Assembly: GCA_018003315.1 (NCBI GenBank)
Contig: JAGNEJ010000002.1
Location: forward strand, 91,267-155,266
DNA: 64,000 bases
Reading direction: 5' to 3'
From: Verrucomicrobiales bacterium
GTDB taxonomy: Bacteria > Verrucomicrobiota > Verrucomicrobiia > Verrucomicrobiales > V1-33
Shown piece by piece: positions 43,940-57,178 of this stretch; position 1 is the stretch's first letter, and each line of letters begins with the position of its first letter. Both the position numbers and the translations under genes were made by a program. The notes under the pieces were generated by a model. The model saw only the letters and a list, made by a program, of their open reading frames with translations, made no database searches and was not told the DNA's origin.

Positions 43940-44548
43940 ATGAAATCCGTTTTTGCAAGACTTGCGGCTCTTACTGCCGTGGCTGGCGCATTGCTGCTTA
44001 GCTCCTGCGTTACCACCGGGCTGACCGGCCAGACACAATATTTGCAACCCGGATCGTTCGGCCAGCAGCAGGTGGGACCGCCACCGGATGCGGTCAGTTT
44101 TTGGGACGGAGGTGCTGGGAATGGAGCCCCGCGTCTGCACATCAACCTGGCGGCGCAGGTCGTGGATTTTTACCGCGGGAACGTACTGGTCGGCCGCTCA
44201 AGGATTTCCAGCGGGGACACCAGCCACCCCAGCCCCACCGGGCGGATGTCGGTGCTGGAAAAAAACAAGAACCATGTGTCATCGCGTTACGGGGATTTTG
44301 TATTTCCCGATGGGACCGTGGCCCGGGCCAACGTGGATGCGCGGACGGACCGTCCGCCGGCTGGCGCACGGTTCAAGGGCTCGCCGATGCCCAACTTCAT
44401 GCGCATCACTTGGGATGGCGTCGGCATGCACGCCGGATTCCTCCCGGGCTACCCGGCCAGCCACGGGTGCATCCGCATGCCCGACCGCATGTCGGAAATC
44501 TTTTTCAGCAACGTCCAGGTAGGCACGCCGGTTCTCGTCACCAATTGA
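43940..44548 (+). CDS. L,D-transpeptidase (YkuD) lipoprotein
   Basis: 202 residues. The signal with lipobox LSSC (Cys about residue 23) predicts a lipid-anchored periplasmic protein. The YkuD catalytic motif reads HAGFLPG...SHGCIRMP, with catalytic His and Cys near residues 162 and 175. These enzymes form 3-3 peptidoglycan cross-links or attach proteins to peptidoglycan. ATG 43940 is preferred over the frame start at 43862 because it precedes the signal peptide directly. No Shine-Dalgarno. The PPK2 gene follows after 34 bases. A possible -10 (TAAAAT, 43903-43908) lies 31 bases upstream, without a good -35. Confidence 0.9.
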   Translation: MKSVFARLAALTAVAGALLLSSCVTTGLTGQTQYLQPGSFGQQQVGPPPDAVSFWDGGAGNGAPRLHINLAAQVVDFYRGNVLVGRSRISSGDTSHPSPTGRMSVLEKNKNHVSSRYGDFVFPDGTVARANVDARTDRPPAGARFKGSPMPNFMRITWDGVGMHAGFLPGYPASHGCIRMPDRMSEIFFSNVQVGTPVLVTN

Positions 44549-44582
44549 CGGCGGCGAACCGTTGCTTCAGGCCTGTGCCCGC

Positions 44583-45386
44583 ATGAAGATCTACCGCATC
44601 AAGCCTGGAAGCAAAGTCAAGCTGACGGAGTTCGATCCGGAGGGGCAGTGCGACCCTGCGGAGAACAAGGATCTCTGCCTGGCCCGCTTGGTGCATTTGA
44701 AAGATGCGATGCTCGACCTCCAGCGTCTGCTGCATGCGGAGCATGAGAAGCGGCTGCTCATCATCCTGCAGGGCATGGATGCCAGCGGAAAAGACGGCAC
44801 CGTCCGTCAGGTGTTTTCCGGACTGGATCCCCACGGATTTCGGGTCGCGGCCTTCAAGGCTCCCACGGCGGAGGAACTCGATCATGATTTCCTCTGGCGG
44901 GTGCATGCCCGGGTGCCGGCGAAGGGCGAAGTGGTGGTTTTCAACCGCAGCCATTATGAGGACATTGTCGCGGTCAAAGTGAAGAACCTGCGGCCCAAAG
45001 AGGTGTGGGAAAAGCGCTTTGAGCATGTGGTGAACTTCGAACGTCTGCTGGTGGATGAAGGAACCACGGTGCTGAAATTCTTCCTGCACGTTTCCCGTGA
45101 AGAGCAGCGCCGTCGGCTCCAGGGGCGGCTGGAAAATCCCAAGAAGCACTGGAAGTTCCACCCCGAGGACCTGCGGGACCGCGAGCGGTGGCCGGAATTT
45201 GTCGAGGCGTATGAGGAAACCATGAGCCGCACATCCTGGGAGGGAGCTCCCTGGCATGTCATTCCCGCGGACAACAAATGGTACCGCAACGTGGTGGTGG
45301 CGGAAATCGTGCGGGACACTCTGGCGAAACTGGAGCCGGCATGGCCGCAACCCCAGCACAACGTCCGCGGGTTGGTGGTGAAGTGA
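44583..45386 (+). CDS. ppk2: Polyphosphate kinase 2 family protein
   Basis: 267 residues, one PPK2 domain. The Walker A-like loop is GMDASGKDGTVRQV near residues 63-76 and the lid/Walker B region has FNRSHYEDIV. DRERWPEFVEAYEETMSRTS and HVIPADNKWYRN are also characteristic. PPK2 enzymes phosphorylate nucleoside mono- or diphosphates with polyphosphate. The length and sequence resemble the class I and III short forms; which nucleotide it uses cannot be told here. It is 34 bases after the L,D-transpeptidase gene; no ppk1 or ppx is near. Confidence 0.9.
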   Translation: MKIYRIKPGSKVKLTEFDPEGQCDPAENKDLCLARLVHLKDAMLDLQRLLHAEHEKRLLIILQGMDASGKDGTVRQVFSGLDPHGFRVAAFKAPTAEELDHDFLWRVHARVPAKGEVVVFNRSHYEDIVAVKVKNLRPKEVWEKRFEHVVNFERLLVDEGTTVLKFFLHVSREEQRRRLQGRLENPKKHWKFHPEDLRDRERWPEFVEAYEETMSRTSWEGAPWHVIPADNKWYRNVVVAEIVRDTLAKLEPAWPQPQHNVRGLVVK

Positions 45387-45477
45387 TTCCGGGCTGCACC
45401 CGGTGCCGCCCCGTTGCCGAAAAATTCACAACTTTCCGGCGGCAGGCCGTGTCTGCCGCCCGTATGATCCTCGCATC

Positions 45478-46959
45478 ATGAAATCCGTTGCAGCCCTGCT
45501 GCGCATCCTGCTGGGCTTGGCCGTGTCAAGCGCGGCAGCCGCCGGCCCCTCCATTCAAATCGACATCGGCAATGGGGTGACGCTCGACCTCATCCTGGTC
45601 CAGCCGGGGCAGTATTCCCAAGGTTCTCCGGAGGACGAAGCCGGACGCGGTGCCGATGAAGCCGCGCGGCCCGTTGCCCTGACAAAACCATTTTATCTTG
45701 GCAGGACCGAAGTGACCCGGCGGCAGTTCGAAACCTTTGTCCGGGCCACCGGTTACCGGACGGAGGCGGAGGATGGAAAATCCGGCGGTTACGGATGGGA
45801 CGGCCAGAAGCTGCTGCAGCGGAAGGGTTTCAACTGGCGTTCGCCGGGCATTGCCCAGACGGGGGAGCACCCGGTCTGCTGTGTCACCTGGTTTGATGCC
45901 CAGCGGTTCTGCGAGTGGCTCTCGCAGCGCAGTGGACGGAAATTCTCCCTGCCCAGCGAGGCGCAGTGGGAATATGCCTGCCGCGCCGGCACCCAGACTC
46001 CGTGGCCGCTGGAGGTGGATGAAATCGCCTGGCACAAGGGCAACAGCGGGTTTTCCACCCATGCCGCGGCCGGGTTGAAGGCGAATGCCTGGGGCTTTCA
46101 CGACATGGGCGGAAACGTGTGGGAGTGGTGCGAGGACTGGTATGCACCCTATCCTGCAGGACGGGCCATCGATCCGCTGCAGACCAATGACAAACTGAGC
46201 GACAAACCGCGCCGGGTGCTGCGCGGCGGAGGATTTTTGAAGGATGCCAGCGGCGCAAGGAGTGCCGCCCGTTTTCGGAATGACCCTCGCAGCCGCAATG
46301 CGGACAACGGATTCCGGGTGATGACCTTTACCCTCGTGCCCGTGCTGCCAAAAACGCCCGTGGAAGCGACGCATTCCGCTTCCAATGCGGTGGAGCAGCC
46401 GGCTGCGGATTCCTCGCCTGCTCAACCCGCACCGTCGCCAGTTGCTCCGGTTTCGGCCCCGCCTGCCCGCACTGCGGATGTTCCCAGAACGGGAGGCTCC
46501 AGTACGCTGCTGTGGGTGATCCTGAGCGGGCTGGGATTGTTGGTTTTTGCGGTCATTCGCAAACTGCGCGGCGTCACCAGGGGTGCCATCACCACGACAG
46601 AGCCGCCTGCGGCTCCCTCCAGAGGCGATGAACTGGTCCGTTTTGACCCCACTGCGGATGGATTTTGGCTGCGGGCCAGGGCAGAGCGCGGAAGCCGCAT
46701 CCGGTGGAGTTGTCAGGCAGGCGGCACGCCGCTCGAAGGCGTGCTGGAATATGAACCCGGACCGCGCGGCCAGTTCGTCTTTACCGGCCAGCCGCCTGAA
46801 AACATCGCGGCAGTCATTGTCGGCATGGCAGCAGCGCTGGGCATGGAACCGGAACGGCAATCCCCCTTTCCCCCGCCCCATTCCCAGCAGCCGCCGCAGC
46901 GTGAGGAACCTTCCCCGCCTGCCCGACGCAGCCAGCCGCGTTACCCATCGGCCTATTGA
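45478..46959 (+). CDS. FGE/SUMF1-fold secreted protein with membrane anchor, probably non-catalytic
   Basis: 493 residues. The signal peptide (to about residue 22) is followed by a formylglycine-generating-enzyme-type fold (30-280): GGNVWEWCEDWYAP, RVLRGGGFLKDA and NADNGFRVM are the landmarks. True FGEs use two cysteines after the RGGS motif (a C-x4-C pair); here this stretch reads LKDASGARSAARFR with none, so sulfatase maturation is unlikely and a binding role is more probable. A Pro/Ala-rich linker, a helix (343-361, LLWVILSGLGLLVFAV) and a cytoplasmic domain with a Pro-rich end (PPPHSQQPPQ) follow. No sulfatase gene is nearby. It lies 91 bases after PPK2. Confidence 0.82.
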   Translation: MKSVAALLRILLGLAVSSAAAAGPSIQIDIGNGVTLDLILVQPGQYSQGSPEDEAGRGADEAARPVALTKPFYLGRTEVTRRQFETFVRATGYRTEAEDGKSGGYGWDGQKLLQRKGFNWRSPGIAQTGEHPVCCVTWFDAQRFCEWLSQRSGRKFSLPSEAQWEYACRAGTQTPWPLEVDEIAWHKGNSGFSTHAAAGLKANAWGFHDMGGNVWEWCEDWYAPYPAGRAIDPLQTNDKLSDKPRRVLRGGGFLKDASGARSAARFRNDPRSRNADNGFRVMTFTLVPVLPKTPVEATHSASNAVEQPAADSSPAQPAPSPVAPVSAPPARTADVPRTGGSSTLLWVILSGLGLLVFAVIRKLRGVTRGAITTTEPPAAPSRGDELVRFDPTADGFWLRARAERGSRIRWSCQAGGTPLEGVLEYEPGPRGQFVFTGQPPENIAAVIVGMAAALGMEPERQSPFPPPHSQQPPQREEPSPPARRSQPRYPSAY

Positions 46960-47113
46960 CCCTGGCTGTGGTGGCCCACGGCGCTCCCTGGACGCTCCCA
47001 ACGCCATCGTTCGGCCGGAAAATTGAGGTTGAGGAAATTTCCTAATGGCCATGAAGGGCAACCCGTATTAAGAACAACGGGAAACATCAGAGCCAGGCAC
47101 CCGTTAAATTTGT

Positions 47114-47141
47114 TTGGCAAGGTGACGGTTGGTTTTATAAT
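47114..47141 (+). promoter_or_regulatory. Sigma-70-type promoter of the TPR-TolQ-ExbD operon
   Basis: TTGGCA (47114-47119), 16-base spacer, perfect TATAAT (47136-47141), 61 bases before the first ATG of the five-gene run. It is the best promoter match in the window. Confidence 0.7.
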
Positions 47142-47202
47142 CGCCGCCTTTCCGGGACAAAATGGCGGCTGCCGATCCCCTCACTAATCCGTTTTCATTT
47201 CC

Positions 47203-50200
47203 ATGAACCCACCGCCCCGCTCCTCCTTCCTGTTGTGCCTTTCCGCCGGAATGCTGCTGGCCGCCGCGCCGCAAATCTGGGCGGCTCCGCCCCCCAAGCC
47301 CGCGGACCCGAAGGAAAAGCCTGCCGCCCCTGCCGGCGGGGAAAAGCTGCCGACCAACCAGTTCGAAATGCAGCAACTGGCAAACGAAGCCAATGCCGCT
47401 TGGGAACGGGGTGATGCCAAAACCGTGGTGGCCAAACTGGTGCCCTACCTTGCGGCGTGTGAGAAACTCGGGATCACCGAGAAAATGGACATCCTGCTCT
47501 ACATGCTGGGGGTTTCCTACGCCACACCTCCCGATCCCGACTATGCCAAGGCTACCGAGACGCTGAAGAAATACGAAAACAAATTTCCCAAGGGCGACGC
47601 GATCAAGGACGTGATGCTGCTGATCGGAAAATGCCAGGCGCTGGGCGGGGACAACAAGGGCGCCATCGGACAGTTTGAAAAAATCAAAAACATCCCCGAC
47701 CTGCGCGAGCAGGTGCTGCCGATCCTCGCGGAAATTTACGAAAAGGACGACCAGGCCGGCAAGGCGGTCAGCACGCTGCAGGACTACCTCAAGGGTGGCT
47801 ACGGCTCGACGGAACGGGTGAATGCCGCCTTGCGCCTGGCGAAGATTTATTTCGACACCGACAAGGTGGACGAAGGCATCGCGGTGCTGGAACAGGTGAA
47901 AATCAGCCCGAGTGCCGCCGACTACGTGATCATCATCAATGGCCGTGCGCTGGATGCCGCATCCAAGCTCATGGAAGAAAAGCCGGAACTCGCCCTGCGG
48001 GCGCTCCAGGCGGTGCGTCGCCAAAAGGAAGTCGTGCGCCTGCAGAAGGAACGCAACGAGGTGCTCCGAGGGAAGATCGAGGAATGGAAGCGGAAGAAAA
48101 AAGATCCGAAATTCGCCTCCCTGGCCGAGGAGGGAACCACGCGACTCAAACAATTGGAGGAATTGCTCGGACAGGTGGAGAAGGAGGAATCCTACGACGC
48201 CGTGGTCATTTACCAGATCGGACGCTGCTACGCCACGCTGCACCGCTACTGGGAGGCGGAACTGGCGTTCAGGACCATCAATGAGAAATACCCCACCTTC
48301 GCCAACCGTTCCTCTGCCGCCTTTGGACAGATCATTTCGCTGTTCCAGCTCAAGATGAAAAAGGAGGCGCTGGACCTGTGCTGGAAATTCCTCAAGGATT
48401 TCCCGCAGACTGCCGAGGCCGACGAAGTTTCCGAACTGACCGTCACCATGGCCATGGAGGAGAAGGATTTCGACGGCGCCAAGCGGGCGGTGGAAAACGT
48501 CCTCGCGATCAAGGACAAGGACGGAAAGGACTTGCCGAACAAGAACAAAATGATGCTCTACAAGGTGGGCATTGATTTTGAACTCTACGCCTTCGACGCC
48601 GCCCGGGCCACCCTGGATGAATACCGCAAACTCTTTCCCAATGACGCCTTCAAGGAGGAGGTCGATTACCGCTATGCCCTGACCTATTTCTTCAAGAACG
48701 ACTACAAGAACACCATGGAACAGCTGAACAAGTTCCTGGATGCCTACCCGAACAGCCCCTACCTGCCGGACGCCAACTACCGCCTTGGCATCGTGATGTA
48801 CGGCGAGGAGCAGGCCAACAAAACCAAGGCGGCCAAAGCCAAGGAACTCGCGACCTACAAGTCGAACTTCAAGCGCGTCATCGACCACGCGGAGGACGTC
48901 ATCAAGCGCTTCCCGGATTCCACGGTGCTAGGGGAACTCTACGCCCTCATCGGTGACTGCTACGACCAGATGACACCGGCCGAAGTCGAGGAACTCAAGC
49001 TGGAAAGCGTCGATAAATCCTCCGGCGACGCCTACATGAACGCCGCGATGAAGGCGTCGAACGACAACGTCATGGAATACGGCCTGGAGCAGGCCCGCAC
49101 CAAGTTCCAAGCCATCGGGGCATGGAAGGAAATTCAGGCGCTTTACGAAGACTTCGTCACCCGCCATCCGGAACACCCAGACCGCCTCAAAGGCATCAAC
49201 TATATTTGCATGGCGATCAGCCGCCAGGCCACCAACGCCGAGGAGCGCGAGCAGCGGCGCGGGGAAATTCGGTCCCGGCTCATCAAGGAAATTCTGCCAA
49301 ACATCAACCGGCCGAACAAGGAAGGGGTGGAAATGCTGCTGCAGCAACTGGCGCAGGCCGCGATTCCCAAGCGCAAGCCCCGCCCCGCCACTCCGCCAGC
49401 AGGCGCTCCGGCCACACCGGGAACCGGGACCACCGCGCCACCGCCGCCACCGCCGCCTTCCGCTCCAGATGAGGACCCATATGATGTCGCCGTCAAGCAG
49501 CTCGACACGCAGATGGACGAAGAACTGGCCAAGGGGGGGATGAAGCTCAACAACACCGGCAAGGCCCGGATGCTCTACACCAAGGCCCAACTGCTCAAGA
49601 TGGTTGGAGCCAAACGGGACCCGGCTGATCCGAAGAAGAAGATCGACCGCACGCCGGATTACGAAAAACTCCTTGATCAGATTGGTACCGAATTTCAGCC
49701 GGAAGACCTGCCGTCCACCCTGCTGGCATTTGTTGGGGATCACCTGCGCAAGCGGGGCATTGTGGAAAAGGCGACTGCCTGCTACAATCGGCTGCTCCAG
49801 TTCTTCCCGCACAGCGACTTTCTGGACTTTGCCGTCGTGGGGCTGGGAGACATGGCCTATGAGGCCAAAAACTACGCCGAGGCGGAAAAGCAATACCGCA
49901 AGGCCAAGGACGAAGTTCCTGGAATGAAATACCCCAATGCGCTCATGGGTCTGGCCAAATCGCAGATTGCCCAAGGAAATTACAAGGACTGTGAAGCGCC
50001 GCTGACCGAGATTGTCGGCACCAAGGAATGGAAGGGCGAATTGACAGCGGAAGCGCTCTACTGGCTCGGTGAATCCTCCTTCAAACTTGGAAATTTCTCC
50101 GTTTCCGCCAATTACTACCAGCGGATTTTCCTCTCCTTTGCCAAGTATGCGGACTGGGCGGTCAAGGGTTACATCGGCGCCATCGAAAGCTTCATGGCAC

Positions 50201-50331
50201 TCGGCCAGAAACCCCAGGCCGCCGCCCATGCCAAGGAAGCCAAGGAATACCTCGTCAAGCGCAAGCTGGAAGCCGGGCCGCTCATGCAGCAGCTGCGGGA
50301 GGTCTGCGGCAAGCGCGGACTTCCCCTCTAA
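47203..50331 (+). CDS. Large secreted tetratricopeptide-repeat protein of a TolQ/ExbD operon
   Basis: 1042 residues. A signal peptide (about 1-27, ...LLAAAPQIWAA) is followed by TPR-type helical repeats along nearly the whole chain; motifs such as YDAVVIYQIGRCYATLHRYW, DYKNTMEQLNKFLDAYPNSP and LYWLGESSFKLGNFSVSANY show the paired helices with Gly/Ala and Pro-capped turns. A Pro-rich linker (PPPPPPPSAPDEDP) near residue 740-760 splits it in two. In the periplasm it could serve as a scaffold or an outer-membrane-linked lever for the motor genes that follow; that is inference from operon position. The 28-base gap to the next gene and lack of a terminator indicate one transcript. Confidence 0.85.
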   Translation: MNPPPRSSFLLCLSAGMLLAAAPQIWAAPPPKPADPKEKPAAPAGGEKLPTNQFEMQQLANEANAAWERGDAKTVVAKLVPYLAACEKLGITEKMDILLYMLGVSYATPPDPDYAKATETLKKYENKFPKGDAIKDVMLLIGKCQALGGDNKGAIGQFEKIKNIPDLREQVLPILAEIYEKDDQAGKAVSTLQDYLKGGYGSTERVNAALRLAKIYFDTDKVDEGIAVLEQVKISPSAADYVIIINGRALDAASKLMEEKPELALRALQAVRRQKEVVRLQKERNEVLRGKIEEWKRKKKDPKFASLAEEGTTRLKQLEELLGQVEKEESYDAVVIYQIGRCYATLHRYWEAELAFRTINEKYPTFANRSSAAFGQIISLFQLKMKKEALDLCWKFLKDFPQTAEADEVSELTVTMAMEEKDFDGAKRAVENVLAIKDKDGKDLPNKNKMMLYKVGIDFELYAFDAARATLDEYRKLFPNDAFKEEVDYRYALTYFFKNDYKNTMEQLNKFLDAYPNSPYLPDANYRLGIVMYGEEQANKTKAAKAKELATYKSNFKRVIDHAEDVIKRFPDSTVLGELYALIGDCYDQMTPAEVEELKLESVDKSSGDAYMNAAMKASNDNVMEYGLEQARTKFQAIGAWKEIQALYEDFVTRHPEHPDRLKGINYICMAISRQATNAEEREQRRGEIRSRLIKEILPNINRPNKEGVEMLLQQLAQAAIPKRKPRPATPPAGAPATPGTGTTAPPPPPPPSAPDEDPYDVAVKQLDTQMDEELAKGGMKLNNTGKARMLYTKAQLLKMVGAKRDPADPKKKIDRTPDYEKLLDQIGTEFQPEDLPSTLLAFVGDHLRKRGIVEKATACYNRLLQFFPHSDFLDFAVVGLGDMAYEAKNYAEAEKQYRKAKDEVPGMKYPNALMGLAKSQIAQGNYKDCEAPLTEIVGTKEWKGELTAEALYWLGESSFKLGNFSVSANYYQRIFLSFAKYADWAVKGYIGAIESFMALGQKPQAAAHAKEAKEYLVKRKLEAGPLMQQLREVCGKRGLPL

Positions 50332-50358
50332 GAACCAGACAATCCCACTGAGTCATTC

Positions 50359-51285
50359 ATGAAACTGCCACTGTTCATTCTCACGCTCGGCGTCTTCGCC
50401 TGGAGTGCGCTGCCCGCCTTCAGTCAGCGCCTCTTTACCAAGGATGGCAAGGAATTGCCCTGGGCCGACTGTGTGATTCAGGGGTCCAACGTGGCGTGGA
50501 AAACCAAGGACGCCCTCGGCAAGGACCGGATCATCAATATTCTCGGCACGGACATCGTCCGCATCGACTATCCAGAACCGGTGGAGTTGCAGGATGCAGC
50601 CGCCGCGGCAACGCGGGGCGATGGAGACACCGCCCTGACCAAGGCGGATGTGGTGCTCAAGCAGTTTGAAGGGTTCAAGCTGACCGCCGGTTCCTGGTGG
50701 GTGTCCGCTGCGCTGGTGAAGCTGGAAGCGCTGGGAATCAAGAAGGACGAAGCCGGGTTCGACAAACTCAATGCCGAATTGAAGGCGATGACCCTTGGTC
50801 CATCCGATCAACTTCGCCTGCGTGCCGCGCAGGGAGCACAGGAATATTACAAGGGCGCACCGGGTCCGGCCAAGCAGATCGTCGAAGAGATCATCCCCAA
50901 GACCGATGACGCCGCGGTGCTGGCGAAACTCTACCTGCTGCTCGGAGACATCGAGTATAAACGGCAGTCATTCGCCGATGCCCGCGAGGCCTACCTTCAC
51001 GTGCCCGTGTTTTACGGCTCCCAGGGACTGCTGCTGCCCAATGCCGAACTTGGGGCCGCGCGGTCGCTGGTGAAATTGCAGCGGCTCGAAGACGCTTCCG
51101 AAATGCTTTCGGGCATCGTGGACCGCTACCCGGGAACCCCCCAGGCGAAAGCGGCGGATGAGGAACGCAAGCAACTGCTCAAGGCGCTGGGGGAAACCGA
51201 ACAGAGCATGGCGGAAAAGCAGGGCAACGCGGACGCCAAGGAGAAGCCCGAGGGGGAAACACCTGCAGAAGAGGAGAAAAAGTAA
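50359..51285 (+). CDS. Secreted TPR-like partner protein
   Basis: 308 residues. The signal peptide (MKLPLFILTLGVFAWSALPAF, cut near residue 22) is followed by a short beta part (TKDGKELPWADCVIQG...VRIDYPEP). Four or so TPR-like helical pairs follow (LAKLYLLLGDIEYKRQSFAD is the clearest) and an acidic Lys/Glu-rich tail (NADAKEKPEGETPAEEEKK). It lies 28 bases after the large TPR gene and 81 before the TolQ-like gene. The paired TPR proteins are probably periplasmic parts of the same complex. A weak internal promoter (TTGACG 51319-51324, TAACCA 51342-51347) may lie in the following gap. Confidence 0.8.
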   Translation: MKLPLFILTLGVFAWSALPAFSQRLFTKDGKELPWADCVIQGSNVAWKTKDALGKDRIINILGTDIVRIDYPEPVELQDAAAAATRGDGDTALTKADVVLKQFEGFKLTAGSWWVSAALVKLEALGIKKDEAGFDKLNAELKAMTLGPSDQLRLRAAQGAQEYYKGAPGPAKQIVEEIIPKTDDAAVLAKLYLLLGDIEYKRQSFADAREAYLHVPVFYGSQGLLLPNAELGAARSLVKLQRLEDASEMLSGIVDRYPGTPQAKAADEERKQLLKALGETEQSMAEKQGNADAKEKPEGETPAEEEKK

Positions 51286-51366
51286 CCGCAATCTGCTCCG
51301 CCTGTTTGACAATGACACTTGACGCTTTACGACCAAACGCTTAACCAGACACACGAAAATCAACTC

Positions 51367-52161
51367 ATGAAATTCAAGTCCCTTTCTCTCGCCTTCACCA
51401 CCGCGCTGCTCGTGGCACTCCCATCCTTGGCCTCAGCCCAGGAGGTTCACTCCAAGAGTTTTTTCAAGAAACTGGAAGAGGGCGGCTGGGTCATGATCCC
51501 CCTGGCCATCTGTTCGATCGCCATGCTCTGGCTGCTGGTCGATGGCATTCTGCGCACCCGCCCGCTGCGTCTGGTTCCACCCATGGAACTCGAAAAGCTG
51601 CGCAATGCCTTCCGGGCCGGTGACTACGTGGGCGCTTATCAGGTCACTCAGGAAGTCCCGTGTGCCATCAACAACGTCGTCCGCGCCGGATTGGTGAGCC
51701 TTGGGGACGGCAAGGATGCCACGGAGGAAGCCATGCTCGCAGAAATCAACAAAGAGCAGGCCCGCGGAGCCGTGAGACTTTCGTATCTTTCCGTGCTCGG
51801 CGTCTGCACTCCGATGATCGGACTCATCGGAACCGTGACCGGGATGATTCGAGCCTTCGAAGCCTTGGGACAGGGCAACGTCGCCCAGAATGCCGACCAG
51901 CTCGCTTCCGCCATCGGTGAAGTGCTCGTGGCCACGGCAACGGGTCTGTTCATCGCCGTTCCGGCGTTCATGGCCTATTACTTCCTGCGCAACCGCCTGC
52001 AGAATGCGATGCAGGAAGTGGAATACGAAGCCATGAACCTGTTCCGCAAACTGCCCTATCATCTCGCCGAAGGCGTGCACATCGGAGATCAGGAACTTTA
52101 TGCCAATACTCCGAACTGGGTCGATGCCCCGGGCGGCGAAACGGCTGCGCCTGCGGCCTGA
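51367..52161 (+). CDS. MotA/TolQ/ExbB proton channel family protein
   Basis: 264 residues. Unlike E. coli TolQ, it starts with a cleavable signal peptide (MKFKSLSLAFTTALLVALP...ASAQ), then three transmembrane helices: near 40 (WVMIPLAICSIAMLWLLV), near 150 (GVCTPMIGLIGTVTGMI) and near 190 (VATATGLFIAVPAFMAY). The last two carry the family Thr/Gly/Pro pattern LIGTVTGMI..F and LVATATGLFIAVPA. The channel uses the proton gradient to drive its ExbD/TolR partners, which are encoded next. ATG 51367 is chosen over an upstream TTG. A gap of 92 bases precedes the first exbD. Confidence 0.9.
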   Translation: MKFKSLSLAFTTALLVALPSLASAQEVHSKSFFKKLEEGGWVMIPLAICSIAMLWLLVDGILRTRPLRLVPPMELEKLRNAFRAGDYVGAYQVTQEVPCAINNVVRAGLVSLGDGKDATEEAMLAEINKEQARGAVRLSYLSVLGVCTPMIGLIGTVTGMIRAFEALGQGNVAQNADQLASAIGEVLVATATGLFIAVPAFMAYYFLRNRLQNAMQEVEYEAMNLFRKLPYHLAEGVHIGDQELYANTPNWVDAPGGETAAPAA

Positions 52162-52253
52162 CGAATTCCCGGAAAGGAGGCCGCTGCTTGCGAGCGGCGG
52201 CATTCCTTTTTGTGCTTTTCCCACTCACACCAACCTTTTACTGACACAAGCTT

Positions 52254-52682
52254 ATGGCAGGCGGCGGCGGCGGCGGTGAAGGCGAACCGGAGTTTCAGAT
52301 TGCTCCGATGATCGACGTGTTGCTCACGTTGCTCATTTTCTTCATGAGCATCACCACTTCCCAGGTGGAAAAGGTGGACCGTGACATCAAGCTTCCCGTT
52401 GCGCCCGATGCCAAGGAGCGGAAGCCGGACGGCAAGCAGGCGATCATCAACGTCAAATGGAACCCGTCTGATCAGAAATCCACCATCACCTTTGACAGCA
52501 AACCCTACGAGGACATGGAGGAACTGAAAACCGCCTTGGAGGCCAAGAGGGGAGCCCGCACCGACCTTGAGATTCTGATCCGCGGGGACCGCGACCTGCC
52601 GGCGAAGGAGATTCAAAAGATCATGCAGGCGGCGGGCATGGCCGGCATCGACTCGCTCGCCTACTCCACTTATAACCAATAG
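52254..52682 (+). CDS. ExbD/TolR family protein (first of two)
   Basis: 142 residues. A short Gly-rich cytoplasmic start (MAGGGGGGEGEPEFQ) precedes one transmembrane helix with the essential Asp in APMIDVLLTLLIFFM (about residue 21). A periplasmic domain ending with the typical QKIMQAAGMAGIDSLAY follows. It is predicted to work with the TolQ-like channel before it. The gene ends 11 bases before a second exbD, and the two differ clearly in sequence, so they are probably non-equivalent subunits. Confidence 0.9.
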   Translation: MAGGGGGGEGEPEFQIAPMIDVLLTLLIFFMSITTSQVEKVDRDIKLPVAPDAKERKPDGKQAIINVKWNPSDQKSTITFDSKPYEDMEELKTALEAKRGARTDLEILIRGDRDLPAKEIQKIMQAAGMAGIDSLAYSTYNQ

Positions 52683-52693
52683 TCCGCGACACC

Positions 52694-53167
52694 ATGAGCC
52701 GCATTCGCCGCGAAAACAAGAACGAGGACGTCGGGTTCCAAATTGCCCCCATGATCGACGTGGTCTTCGTCATCATGCTTTTCTTCATGGTGAAAGTGGG
52801 TGCCCGCCAGGTCGAAATGGAAATCAAATCCAAGCTTCCCGGCAGTGCGGAGACCTCCACCAGCATCAGCGGCATGGAAGCGCTGGAGGAAAACATCGCC
52901 ATTGATCAGGACGGGATCATCTCTCACAACGAGGAAATGCTGGACGGCATGGGACAGGTGGACAGCAAGGGGGAGGGTGCCGACGAAAAACAGTTGAAGG
53001 AACGGATGAAACGCCTCGCCGAACAGGGCAAGGCCGACAAGACCGAGGTCATTGTCACCGTCAGCACCCAGCCGGATACGAAATACAGCCGGATCATCAA
53101 GGTCATGAACGCCCTGCAGTATGCGGGCATTCGCAATGTGACCTTCACGGTGGCCGAAGAACTTTGA
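52694..53167 (+). CDS. ExbD/TolR family protein (second of two)
   Basis: 157 residues. The start has several Arg/Lys (MSRIRRENKNEDVGFQ). The transmembrane helix carries the essential Asp in APMIDVVFVIMLFFMV, and the periplasmic part includes an inserted acidic region (GQVDSKGEGADEKQ). The end reads YSRIIKVMNALQYAGIRNVTF, the usual peptidoglycan- or partner-facing tail. With two ExbD proteins and one TolQ-like protein the set resembles the AglRQS and GldLM-type logic rather than simple ExbBD. It closes the operon; an inverted repeat follows. Confidence 0.9.
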   Translation: MSRIRRENKNEDVGFQIAPMIDVVFVIMLFFMVKVGARQVEMEIKSKLPGSAETSTSISGMEALEENIAIDQDGIISHNEEMLDGMGQVDSKGEGADEKQLKERMKRLAEQGKADKTEVIVTVSTQPDTKYSRIIKVMNALQYAGIRNVTFTVAEEL

Positions 53168-53168
53168 T

Positions 53169-53208
53169 TGGCAGGATTGCGGGAATGCAGTGGTGAACTC
53201 CCCTGCCA
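53169..53208 (+). terminator. Inverted repeat after the ExbD operon
   Basis: TGGCAGG (53169-53175) pairs with CCTGCCA (53202-53208), arms 7 bp, loop 26 bases. It begins directly after the second exbD stop and is followed by GACTTT. The long loop makes it a poor intrinsic terminator. Confidence 0.3.
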
Positions 53209-53254
53209 GACTTTCGGTGATGGAATTTCCGGAGGTGAACGCTGGAATGCCCAT

Positions 53255-53283
53255 TTGACAACGCTCGTCCCGGCCCCAATTTA
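53255..53283 (+). promoter_or_regulatory. Promoter of the tRNA-Trp gene
   Basis: TTGACA (53255-53260) with a 17-base spacer to AATTTA (53278-53283), ending 11 bases before the first tRNA base. The -35 is perfect; the -10 is poor. Confidence 0.5.
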
Positions 53284-53294
53284 GTTTCCACAAA

Positions 53295-53370
53295 ACGCCA
53301 GTAGCTCAATTGGTAGAGTAGCGGTCTCCAAAACCGTTGGTTGGGGGTTCGATTCCCTCCTGGCGTGCCA
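53295..53370 (+). tRNA. trnW: tRNA-Trp (anticodon CCA)
   Basis: 76 bases with the CCA tail encoded. The acceptor stem ACGCCAG/CTGGCGT pairs over 7 bp; the anticodon stem GCGGT/ACCGT (one G-U) carries the loop CTCCAAA, giving anticodon CCA at 53328-53330; the T stem GGGGG/CCCTC encloses TTCGATT. It stands alone between the ExbD operon and the beta-barrel gene. Confidence 0.97.
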
Positions 53371-53438
53371 CCCTTTTCCTGTCCGGAACAGTGGCCGATT
53401 TCGCTGGTTCCCCCCCCTGAATCTCAACGGGAGGCAAA

Positions 53439-54203
53439 TCAGAATCCCACGGTCAACTTGACTCCTCCGTAGAGATCATCATCCAGTTCGCCCAGTTGGG
53501 CGAAGGGGAAATTACCGGCGATGTAGGGAGTAAGTTCAACATGCTCACTTAGTTTGAGCGGAAAGGAGAGTGAGAGCATGAGGTGGTTGAATCCCGTTCC
53601 CTCCGCGAAGTAGTCGGAATCCCAGCCCAGTGCCACGCCCGGTTGGATGGTGACAACGTCGTTGAGTTGATAGGGAAGCTCCGCAGCCAGTTCGTAATAG
53701 AACGCCTCGCGGGTGAAGCTGTAGGTGCCCATCACGGTCACACTGGCGGGACCGACATCGCGGCTGACGGAGAAGATCATTTCCTGTTCGTCGTCGATTC
53801 CCTCGCCGGCGCCGAGAGACCCCTGCGGATAGTAGTATCCAGCGTAACCCAGGCCGAATTCGTATTTGCCGAAACTGAGCAGGAATCCGGCGTTGAGGTC
53901 GAACTCGTTGTAGTCATCGTCCATGTCGTGGAGATACCAAGGGGTGACCGCGAAGAACAGGCTTTCGGTCAGCGGAACAGTCAGGGAAAGCTGCGCCCAC
54001 GGGGTGTTTTTCTGCAGCAGCTCACCGCGGAAAATGTAATGGGAATCATATCCGATGGCGGCCTCGATTTCCAGGCCGCTCGACTCAGCAGATTCCGGAG
54101 GCGGCACCGGGGCTTGGGAGGCCGAGGTGGAACCTGCCAGAGCAGTGGATGCGGCAGCAAGGGCTGCGACGGTCGCAAGAAAAGCGGAAGGGAATTTTTT
54201 CAT
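53439..54203 (-). CDS. Outer-membrane beta-barrel protein
   Basis: 254 residues. The signal peptide (MKKFPSAFLATVAALAAAST...AGS) is followed by alternating hydrophobic strands ending in GGVKLTVGF, an aromatic C-terminal residue as recognised by BAM. The GLEIEAAIGYDSHYIFRGE opening resembles the TorF/DUF-type porin-like barrels ('GYDSRYIFRG') seen in marine bacteria. Acidic loops (MDDDYNEFDLN) face outward. Its solute is unknown. ATG 54203 is the signal-peptide start. It is a single gene, convergent with the tRNA. Confidence 0.8.
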   Translation of the reverse strand: MKKFPSAFLATVAALAAASTALAGSTSASQAPVPPPESAESSGLEIEAAIGYDSHYIFRGELLQKNTPWAQLSLTVPLTESLFFAVTPWYLHDMDDDYNEFDLNAGFLLSFGKYEFGLGYAGYYYPQGSLGAGEGIDDEQEMIFSVSRDVGPASVTVMGTYSFTREAFYYELAAELPYQLNDVVTIQPGVALGWDSDYFAEGTGFNHLMLSLSFPLKLSEHVELTPYIAGNFPFAQLGELDDDLYGGVKLTVGF

Positions 54204-54352
54204 GCTGAAGGGATCTCGGTGAGTTGGCGAAAACCAATGGCAATCGTGACATGATTTCACCCGGCTGCGAAGGGAAAAGCGCACATTTTCTCGAATTTAG
54301 GTGTTGCGTGACGCCCCTCGGCGGCGCCGGCAGTGTGCCGTTGCCGGTCCGA

Positions 54353-55336
54353 CTAAAATCCCAATGGCATGGCCGCAGGTTTGGCGACGGATGCCGGAGC
54401 TGTCGGGGCGCGGTCGATCTGGATGATGGTGATGATGAAAATGAGGATGATGAACAGTCCGCCCCACCCGCAGGTAATCAGAATGCCGGTGAGCAGGATG
54501 AACGGAGAAATAAGGAGCAGGCCAGCGATGGAGCGGGTAGGCGCCTGCTCCCATGGGACCAGGCAAAGTTTCAAGTGGGCGCGACCCAACTGCAGCCCCA
54601 GCACGGCATAGAGGGCAAAAATGGCGAGTAAGCACACGAGAATGTAGAAAAACACTATCGGCGAAAGTTTGGAAATGCCGAAGAGGGCGGGACCTTCCAA
54701 AACGATGGTGTTGACGGCAACCACCACCGATAAAACATAAATTAGACCAATGAACAGGATGGGAAGGCGGACACTGTAGCGGGAATAGCCGGAGGTGCCG
54801 ATGATGAGGCCGCTGTTGGCGAGGCTGGCTCCGATGACTGCGAGCAGTTGGATGGCGCTTTCCGTGATTTCGATACCGCCGAAAAAATAGCGCACGATGG
54901 CATAGGGAAGCAGCGAACTGACGACCAGCAGGGTGAGAAACATCTGGACCATCCATTTGCCGCGGACAATTTTCCAGCGAGTCAGGCCTGCCATGAGGAG
55001 GAGTTCCGTGTTTCCCCGCTGCCGTTCTTCCTGGAGCGCGTCGAATCCGCGCAGCGGCATCAGGTAGGCCACCACCAGATAGGCCGCCTCCCAGAACGCC
55101 AGTTTTCCCAGCGTGGGGTGGATGAGGGGGCGGACGCCCTGGCTGGTGGCTTGGGATTGCTGGAGGGCCATCCACTCGACCGCCAGAGTCCCGAGCAAGA
55201 TGAAATGCACTGTAATGAACGGAACTAGAAAGAAGCGGTGCTGCAGCGCCTGGCGCAGTTCCTTGACCACCATGGGGTCCATCCATTCGGGAAAATCCCT
55301 CTGCGGTGCGTCCGGAGCAGCAGTGGTGGGGACCAT
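54353..55336 (-). CDS. ABC-2-type permease-like membrane protein
   Basis: 327 residues with about seven hydrophobic helices. The N-terminus PEWMDPMVVKELRQALQHR is the usual cytoplasmic start before the first helix of ABC-2 exporters related to ABC transporter permease subunits in Gram-negatives. The middle part has EERQRGNTELLLMAGLTRWKI, the conserved coupling-helix segment. No ATPase gene is adjacent, so the partner must be encoded elsewhere. It lies 36 bases after the D-Ala-D-Ala carboxypeptidase on the same strand and may be co-transcribed with it. Confidence 0.75.
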   Translation of the reverse strand: MVPTTAAPDAPQRDFPEWMDPMVVKELRQALQHRFFLVPFITVHFILLGTLAVEWMALQQSQATSQGVRPLIHPTLGKLAFWEAAYLVVAYLMPLRGFDALQEERQRGNTELLLMAGLTRWKIVRGKWMVQMFLTLLVVSSLLPYAIVRYFFGGIEITESAIQLLAVIGASLANSGLIIGTSGYSRYSVRLPILFIGLIYVLSVVVAVNTIVLEGPALFGISKLSPIVFFYILVCLLAIFALYAVLGLQLGRAHLKLCLVPWEQAPTRSIAGLLLISPFILLTGILITCGWGGLFIILIFIITIIQIDRAPTAPASVAKPAAMPLGF

Positions 55337-55372
55337 GACGGACAGGGAAGTTTGGCCAGGAGTCAGCGGGCG

Positions 55373-56248
55373 TCATTGGCCCAGTCCCCAGGACATCATC
55401 GCCCGGGCATCATCCCAGATGTAACGGGTCTTCGTGCCAAGCTGGACGAGGATGACGTCCCGCCTTCCGTTGTGGGCGGTGGAAATCAAGCAGCGCCCGG
55501 CAGCGACTGTGTAGCCTGTTTTCATGCCATTGCATTCGGGCATGGACCCCAGCAGATTGTTGGTGTTCTTCAGCTGGCGTCCGTGGAAGCCGAGGTATTT
55601 GCGCCGGACAATGTCGCGAATGACCGGGTGACGGTAGGCGGCCATGGCGATGCGGGCCATGTCCCGGGCGGTGGAGGCATTGCCGGAAGCGGTGAGACCG
55701 TGAGGATTGGCGAACCGGGAGCGGGTGGCGCCCAGGGAGCGAGCCTTCGCATTCATGCGGGCGGCGAAGGCAGGAATGCTCCCGGCCGTTTCGCGAGCGA
55801 GTACATTGGCGGCGTCATTCGCGCTTTTCACCAGGAACGCATAGAGCAGTTCGCGTCGGGAATAGGCCTCGCCAGGGCGCACCCCCAGTTTGGTCGGTTC
55901 GACCCGAATGTCCGAGGTCTGGACTCTGACCGTGCGGTCGAGACCACCCGCATCGAGCACCACCAGGGCGGTGAGGATTTTTTGGGTGGAAGCGACCGGA
56001 CGGATGGTGTCGGCATTGCGTGAAGCCAGCGTGGCACCGGTCCGTGCATCGAGCAGGATGTAGGAAGCGGCACGGATTTCCGGCGGGCGGGTGCGGGGGA
56101 AGAAGGGAGCGGGAGAGGGGTTGGCAGACCCCATGCCTGGCGGAGGGTAGGCCGGGGGTGTGGATGCGCACGAGGCAAGAAACCCGGCCAGTCCTGCCAG
56201 GAGCACCGGCCGCGAAATGGCCCGGAAGAGTCGGTGACAACGAAACAT
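55373..56248 (-). CDS. D-alanyl-D-alanine carboxypeptidase lipoprotein (DacA/PBP5 family)
   Basis: 291 residues. The lipobox LASC gives Cys27 as lipid anchor. The penicillin-binding motifs are complete: S87-TQK90 (SxxK), S142-A-N144 and K243-TG. It trims the terminal D-Ala from peptidoglycan stem peptides in the periplasm. The protein is shorter than DacA because the usual C-terminal PBP5 domain and membrane helix are absent; the lipid replaces the membrane anchor. ATG 56248 is chosen for the signal. It is divergent from the ParA gene, 138 bases away. Confidence 0.9.
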
Positions 56249-56386
56249 GGCCGCACCTTGGCTGCAATGCGGGGCAAAGCAAACGCGGGCAGGCAGGAAA
56301 AGTCCGCGGAATTCTGCTGGCGGGTTTGGAACGCCTGTGGAATAAACCCTTTGCCGTTCTCCCCGCCACACAGAACCCAAGCATTC

Positions 56387-57178
56387 ATGAAGATCATCGC
56401 CATCGCCAACCAAAAGGGTGGGGTCGGAAAGACCACAACAGCCATCAACCTCGCCGCCTGCCTGGCCCAGCGGGAGAAACGCGTACTTCTGCTGGATCTC
56501 GATCCTCAGGGGAACGCCTCCAGCGGCCTCGGATACCGTGCAGGTGAGGGCCAGAGCCTCTATCGCGTCCTGATTGGTCAGGACACCCTCGCGGGAAAAA
56601 TCCTCCCCACGCGATTTCCGACGCTCTCGCTCATTCCCGCACAAATGGAACTTGCCGGATGCGAGGTCGAACTGGTCCGCGCCGACAATCACCTGACCCG
56701 CCTGCGTGAAGTGCTGCAGCCGCTCAAGGAAAGCGGCGAATTTGATTTTCTCATCATTGACTGTCCGCCCTCACTGGGCGTGCTGATGACTTCGGCTCTG
56801 GCTGCGGCGGACGGATTGCTCATTCCCATTCAGTGCGAGTATTTCGGCCTCGAAGGACTGGCCCGCATTGTGGATATCCATGACCAGATCGCGGCCTCCG
56901 GCGTCAATCCCTCCGTCTCTCTTGAGGGCATCCTGATGACCATGTTTGACGGACGCACCGGCCATGCCCGCTCTGTGGTGGAGGAGGTCCGCAGGGTCTT
57001 TGAGAACGTGGTCTATCAGACGGTGATTCCTCGCAGCATCATCGTGGCGGAAAGCCAGAGTTACGAAAAGGCCCTCATCGAATACGACCGCAACAACCGG
57101 GCCACCCAGGCCTACCGGGCCTTGGCGGAGGAATTCATCCAGCGCCAGGTGCCCGAGGGCGAGCCAGTGGCCGCCTGA
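56387..57178 (+). CDS. ParA/Soj family ATPase
   Basis: 263 residues, the length of chromosomal Soj/ParA. The deviant Walker A motif KGGVGKTTT lies near residues 10-18, Walker B reads [10 protein letters not shown], and [12 protein letters not shown] is the signature loop. These dimeric ATPases bind DNA nonspecifically and move ParB-parS complexes. No parB lies next to it, which is unusual because soj and spo0J normally sit together, and no parS-like site was seen by eye. It could be an orphan of MinD/MipZ type, but the sequence is closer to ParA. Confidence 0.9.

Follow-up and report, generated by a model that had tools for sequence, protein, structure and literature searches.

A deeply conserved ExbB/ExbD motor operon of Verrucomicrobiota and its probable, diverse force arms encoded elsewhere

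The five-gene locus

The 64,000-nucleotide stretch of DNA analyzed here (the window; positions 91,267 to 155,266 of contig JAGNEJ010000002.1, assembly GCA_018003315.1, from a Verrucomicrobiales bacterium) carries at 47203-53167 a single plus-strand run of five genes, encoding two secreted tetratricopeptide repeat (TPR) proteins (TPR1 and TPR2), an ExbB/TolQ-type channel and two distinct ExbD-type proteins (ExbD-A and ExbD-B). This is a genuine motor operon with deep conservation, belonging to a type that was described only recently, and its probable force-transmitting arms are diverse and encoded elsewhere. All five open reading frames (ORFs) and their families, initially recognized in a reading of the letters without database searches (the sequence-only reading), were verified; the signal peptides of TPR1, TPR2 and ExbB were judged by eye from the translations. 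The locus comprises the following features.

47114..47141, + strand: sigma-70-like promoter candidate, TTGGCA-16-TATAAT, about 60 bases before the TPR1 start, a consensus match alone
47203..50331, + strand: TPR1, 1042-residue secreted TPR protein with YbgF/CpoB/BamD-like repeats (PF13174, TIGR02795)
50359..51285, + strand: TPR2, 308-residue secreted TPR protein with an N-terminal beta domain at about residues 24-70 (weak PF14559 and TIGR02795; AlphaFold)
51367..52161, + strand: ExbB/TolQ-type channel with its own N-terminal signal-like segment (PF01618)
52170..52212, + strand: U-tailed terminator- or attenuator-like hairpin between exbB and exbD-A (z -2.57)
52254..52682, + strand: ExbD-A, 142 residues, transmembrane aspartate D21 in PMIDV (PF02472)
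52694..53167, + strand: ExbD-B, 157 residues, transmembrane aspartate D22 in PMIDV (PF02472)
53295..53370, + strand: tRNA-Trp, immediately 3' of the operon (ARAGORN)

The intergenic gaps measure 27, 81, 92 and 11 bases, the last three as in the sequence-only reading, which had put the first at 28. The start of ExbB is the ATG at 51367, with an alternative in-frame TTG upstream at 51319. The same reading had described a single promoter-led run. The promoter candidate scores 11/12 and is not significant by itself, since shuffled sequence yields 1.6 such sites in the region; one continuous transcript of the five genes is likely, with a strong hairpin inside the run. As a possible attenuator, this hairpin could reduce ExbD expression relative to ExbB and thereby set the ExbB:ExbD output. 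As initially reported, no gene for TonB, TolA, TolB, Pal or a receptor was recognized at the locus (ORFs at 44000-56500, with the neighbors judged from their translations).

Motor and TPR components

The MotA_ExbB domain (PF01618, E 8.6e-27 in Pfam) and the pore threonines place the channel protein in the ExbB/TolQ/MotA family. T156 and T190, which are these threonines, and P199 are unchanged in 17 of 17 orthologues, and in the alignment E185 of the window protein occupies the position of the ExbB/TolQ pore glutamate; four relatives (L041, L043, L044, L045) have a histidine in its place (IGHVL). Both ExbDs possess the domain of the ExbD/TolR family (PF02472; E 9.8e-21 for ExbD-A and 3e-17 for ExbD-B) and its transmembrane aspartate, which is kept in 79/79 and 80/80 of the relatives scored, respectively. 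The best scores are against TolQ for the channel and against TolR for both ExbDs. ExbD-A and ExbD-B form separate orthologous clades (support 0.97 and 0.998), between which other ExbDs of the genome fall; given this separation and the retained aspartates, the pair is old and both members look competent, and the simplest reading of the sequences would be an ExbD-A/ExbD-B heterodimeric rotor. A third ExbD, of the ExbD-B type, is present in the operons of two genomes (G001, L037:8197-9553, and G030, L052:9670-11269).

TPR1 matches PF13174 (E 3e-21) and TIGR02795 (E 9.8e-30) in Pfam and NCBIfam, its best NCBIfam model being YbgF/CpoB; the sequence is nearest to CpoB/YbgF and BamD-type repeats, and its orthologues in relatives are 25-55% identical. 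TPR2 gave weak TPR matches alone (PF14559, TIGR02795), and its AlphaFold model (predicted local distance difference test, pLDDT, 91) is a confident TPR solenoid preceded by a small beta domain, with BamD and consensus or designed TPR repeats as the top fold matches in the PDB. A PDB search by sequence returned only CpoB, weakly, for TPR1 and nothing for TPR2. The likeliest role of the two proteins would be that of a scaffold linking motor, arms and outer membrane; in Vibrio vulnificus, a TonB operon includes a TPR protein, TtpD2, that is essential (PMC6957404).

Conservation of gene order

When named bacterial genomes were scanned with an ExbB alignment, 80 loci were obtained, titled as Verrucomicrobiota groups except for one PVC (Planctomycetes-Verrucomicrobia-Chlamydiae) group, one Lentisphaerae and several 'Akkermansia muciniphila' metagenome-assembled genomes, titles that are broader or doubtful. 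The exact order TPR1-TPR2-ExbB-ExbD-A-ExbD-B is kept in 75 of the 80, which excludes chance grouping; among the other five, three are cut by contig limits, two of them starting at TPR2 and one stopping at ExbB; of the remaining two, one carries an additional ExbD-B and the other has its ExbDs swapped. The order recurs in relatives of the window genome's own family and in other families, and the five-gene loci include those of the cultured Brevifollis gellanilyticus NBRC 108608 (now Prosthecobacter) and Luteolibacter pohnpeiensis KCTC 22041. The proposal made in the sequence-only reading, that the operon encodes a proton-driven motor of the ExbB/ExbD type together with two distinct ExbDs and secreted TPR proteins, is supported, and the gene order is kept across Verrucomicrobiota. 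TPR1 and TPR2, found in nearly all orthologous loci, are the most constant extra partners of this motor. The exception seen is L054:9519-14360 (G022), where the motor trio, without detectable TPR1 or TPR2, is followed by a 997-residue protein that by eye appears to combine a TolB-type propeller with an M28-type peptidase and a PDZ domain.

Putative force arms in relatives and in the window genome

It had been supposed, from the window alone, that the TPR proteins stand in for TonB or TolA. In the orthologous loci L038, L039, L040, L051, L046, L047, L049, L050, L052 and L053, the next gene 3' of the last ExbD, which overlaps ExbD-B or lies 4-83 bp downstream of it, encodes a membrane-anchored protein with a single helix, the topology of TonB/TolA and a Ser-x3-His docking motif. 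Such a protein, here called an arm, would be a functional analogue of TonB/TolA and is not a homologue in the sense of the TonB_C domain; a counterpart of TonB/TolA does, in substance, occur at the same locus elsewhere. Since arms are found both in relatives and in trans in the window genome, the idea that the TPR proteins are substitutes for TonB/TolA is rejected. The gene after the motor in G003, G005, G010 and G004 encodes a single-helix protein with a von Willebrand factor A (vWA) head, and a vWA arm gene lies directly downstream in L038, L039, L040 and L051; none does in the window locus, where tRNA-Trp follows ExbD-B instead. In family f4 the downstream gene shares the N-terminal helix and linker, and its head is squalene-hopene-cyclase-like. 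A search of the window genome with the arms of relatives recovered three arms, none of them on the contig that carries the motor.

P0014, contig C104: arm with a toroid head
P0015, contig C53: arm with a vWA-like head, without a Pfam match and assigned from a DVSRSM motif
P0016, contig C112: arm with a vWA head

P0014 is 65% identical to P0015 over 155 residues of module and linker, and 54% identical to P0016 over 112 residues (BLASTP); between the heads, BLASTP found no significant homology in the two pairs compared (P0014/P0015 and P0014/P0016). Within the arm module, a transmembrane helix carrying GGGSLxxSxxxH leads into a VDFLPGGG linker. The Ser and His of the Ser-x3-His motif are invariant in 46 of 46 aligned modules, and in cryo-EM structures of the Ton and Tol systems both residues of E. 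coli TonB and TolA contact ExbB or TolQ (PMC12215075). The conserved VDFLPGGG segment sits roughly at the position of the TonB D-box, which binds ExbD (PMC10907165), and may be equivalent to it. No relatives of the module were found in the PDB; the weak matches to tau protein result from its PGGG stretch.

On contig C53 (L123:5345-11721), Verru_Chthon cassette protein A (TIGR02600, E 6.7e-220) is encoded just upstream of P0015, and P0015 overlaps by 4 bases the gene of a separate 389-residue secreted squalene-cyclase-like protein. A link between arms and the Verru_Chthon cassette was considered and dropped: no other listed arm adjoined a listed cassette gene in 37 genomes, and the neighborhood is therefore treated as coincidental.

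Sorting of the 46 arms by their end motifs gave 24 toroids, eight vWA heads (strict motif), four PA14-like heads and ten unsorted, some of the latter being vWA by Pfam (P0006) and some cut off at the locus end. The PA14 matches (17 and 18.8 bits) fall below the Pfam cut-off of 24, making the PA14-like domain a weak assignment. In the AlphaFold model of the toroid arm of L144, built on an alignment of only nine sequences, a helix (39-72) is followed by a low-confidence segment (73-187), which fits a disordered linker, and by a mostly confident helical head; the mean pLDDT of 62 is due to the disordered parts. The top PDB matches of this model in Foldseek are the alpha/alpha-barrel proteins AprG, squalene-hopene cyclases and GH76, with E 3.9e-5 and weaker and a template modelling (TM) score of about 0.6 by target length. 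That the toroid is an active cyclase is not supported, as its fold matches are spread over AprG, the cyclases and GH76 and its NCBIfam cyclase scores are far below the cut-offs; no DxDD-type motif was seen in it by eye. Individual genomes encode up to nine (G030) or 11 (G247) arms, and on contig C116 of G030 (L129:8352-12706) three arms, with PA14-like and vWA heads, are consecutive.

Co-occurrence of the arm module and TPR1

The distributions of the module profile and the TPR1 profile were compared over 286 genomes of the class under three uniform TPR1 criteria. With a TPR1 best match of E <=1e-55, 41 genomes have both, seven TPR1 only, three the module only and 235 neither, that is, the module is present in 41/48 genomes with TPR1 and in 3/238 without. 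The corresponding counts are 39, 3, 5 and 239 when the summed TPR1 bits are >=400, and 35, 3, 9 and 239 at E <=1e-100. By genus, the module is found in 20/23 with TPR1 and 3/115 without, and under the three criteria 20, 20 and 19 of the 23 module genera have both. The Fisher values are <1e-17, a calculation that ignores shared ancestry. Outside the class, module and TPR1-like matches, mostly with weak scores, lie within a few kb on the same contig in seven genomes (G316, G358, G396, G419, G504, G505, G528), and in other genomes weak module matches occur without a TPR1 match at 1e-55.

These data bear on the possibility that the motor is self-contained, with TPR1 and/or TPR2 taking force directly from the ExbDs and acting as the transducer, so that an arm would be unnecessary. 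The constancy of the two TPR proteins and the lack of an arm gene in the window operon would be as expected; however, both proteins look secreted and soluble and lack a docking helix, the five genes are followed by an arm gene in relatives, arms also occur in this genome, and module and TPR1 co-occur across the class, all of which makes such a motor quite improbable.

Envelope maintenance of the Tol-Pal kind, in which the TPR proteins would play the role of CpoB and the arms would pull partners bound to the outer membrane or peptidoglycan and so tether the outer membrane, is slightly less improbable, yet still unlikely. It would account for YbgF/CpoB as the best NCBIfam match of TPR1 and for TolQ and TolR as the best matches of the channel and ExbDs. 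Against it, no TolB, Pal or TolA was recognized at the locus, module and TPR1 are both missing from most of the class genomes sampled, and several different heads per genome are ill-suited to a single housekeeping job.

Other Ton components and related systems

TonB_C proteins occur in the window genome only at C1 and C100 (G000:C1:48575-50207 and G000:C100:40238-40468), the former adjoining its own ExbB/ExbD. With such ordinary components encoded elsewhere, the five-gene motor is distinct from the standard Ton system. Its arms have no TonB_C domain, their domain matches being vWA, toroid, PA14-like or none. A variant of TonB-type uptake, dedicated to particular nutrients or polymers and with heads that recognize different outer-membrane partners, could be envisaged from the essential TtpD2 of the Vibrio TonB operon (PMC6957404), the known occurrence of two ExbDs per TonB operon (PMC4446302) and the resemblance of PA14-like and toroid heads to folds of carbohydrate-active proteins. 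Arms without TonB_C, a locus at which no receptor was seen and the separate standard TonB locus argue against this variant, which we regard as having a low probability. On contig C59 of the same genome (L059:800-4686) a second ExbB-ExbD pair is followed by an 831-residue TPR protein.

Gene clusters in PVC bacteria that combine a TPR gene, tolQ, two tolR genes and the gene of a vWA arm have been reported, with the arm modelled as docked on the motor and proposed to be TonB/TolA-like (PMC12204202, Mol Biol Evol 2025). The present system resembles these vWA force-transducer/TolQR clusters in an arm that has one helix, Ser-x3-His and a disordered linker, and in the vWA head of relatives and of one arm here; it differs in having two TPR genes, an arm outside the operon, in trans, heads that are also alpha/alpha toroid or PA14-like, and several arms per motor. 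A literature search confined to open-licence papers turned up no account of heads of the toroid or PA14-like type, of arms encoded in trans or of several arms per motor. With Tol-Pal (TolQRA-TolB-Pal-CpoB) the system shares a proton-driven TolQ/TolR-type motor, a CpoB-like secreted TPR partner and the Ser-His motif of TolA, whereas at the locus TolA, TolB and Pal are lacking, there are two ExbD/TolR types and the TPR protein is far larger. The TonB2 operon of Vibrio (TtpB, TtpC, ExbB, ExbD, TonB, TtpD) likewise includes a TPR protein, TtpD2, required for function (PMC6957404), but it encodes TonB, TtpC and one ExbD, in contrast to two ExbDs and no TonB_C protein here. One ExbB with two different ExbDs is also found in the exbB2-exbD21-exbD22-tonB2 operon of Riemerella (PMC4446302), which, unlike ours, has four genes, TonB among them, and no TPR gene.

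Proposed mechanism

We favor, with a probability of roughly 0.7, the reading that a dedicated motor, equipped with two types of ExbD and a scaffold of TPR proteins, drives several TonB/TolA-like arms encoded in trans. The ExbB/TolQ channel and the two ExbDs would form a proton-driven 5:2-type motor, probably with a heterodimeric rotor, joined by the two periplasmic TPR proteins, which may bridge motor, arms and outer-membrane targets. Arms would dock on the motor through the shared module, that is, the transmembrane helix and VDFLPGGG linker, and would here be supplied from other contigs as toroid-headed, vWA-headed and vWA-like-headed forms. Because several arms share the module and have different heads, one motor probably energizes multiple arms with different periplasmic heads. 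A broader version, in which each genome has a single fixed TPR/ExbB/ExbD-A/ExbD-B motor that drives up to 11 interchangeable arms with a shared module and unrelated heads, the proton-motive force being split among envelope tasks and new tasks arising by head swapping, seems to us evenly balanced between right and wrong.

Several observations weigh against the favored reading. The link between motor and arms in the window genome rests on homology, not proximity, docking being predicted, and five further ExbB-like proteins in the genome could in principle drive some of the arms. The three arms carry just the Ser-His half of the SHLS motif, the Leu-Ser half being absent; this second half is less conserved in Ton (PMC12215075). 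Three TPR1 genomes of genus g73 have no detectable module. Finally, TPR1 and the module both become harder to detect with phylogenetic distance, and their co-occurrence is therefore inflated; the best evidence that it exceeds shared divergence comes from the split within family f2, where genera g19, g20 and g22 have both and the genomes of g5 have neither the module nor a strong TPR1 match.

Implications

Ton and Tol are textbook systems with a single head design, the C-terminal domain of TonB/TolA. The Verrucomicrobiota-wide motor described here apparently drives a set of several arms with heads that are related neither to TonB/TolA nor to each other. If this is true, the function of such motors outside Proteobacteria becomes testable, and a function is proposed for the membrane-anchored vWA and squalene-cyclase-like proteins of the phylum. 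The arms would amount to natural head-swap experiments on force transmission, and the paired ExbDs would allow a test of rotor asymmetry.

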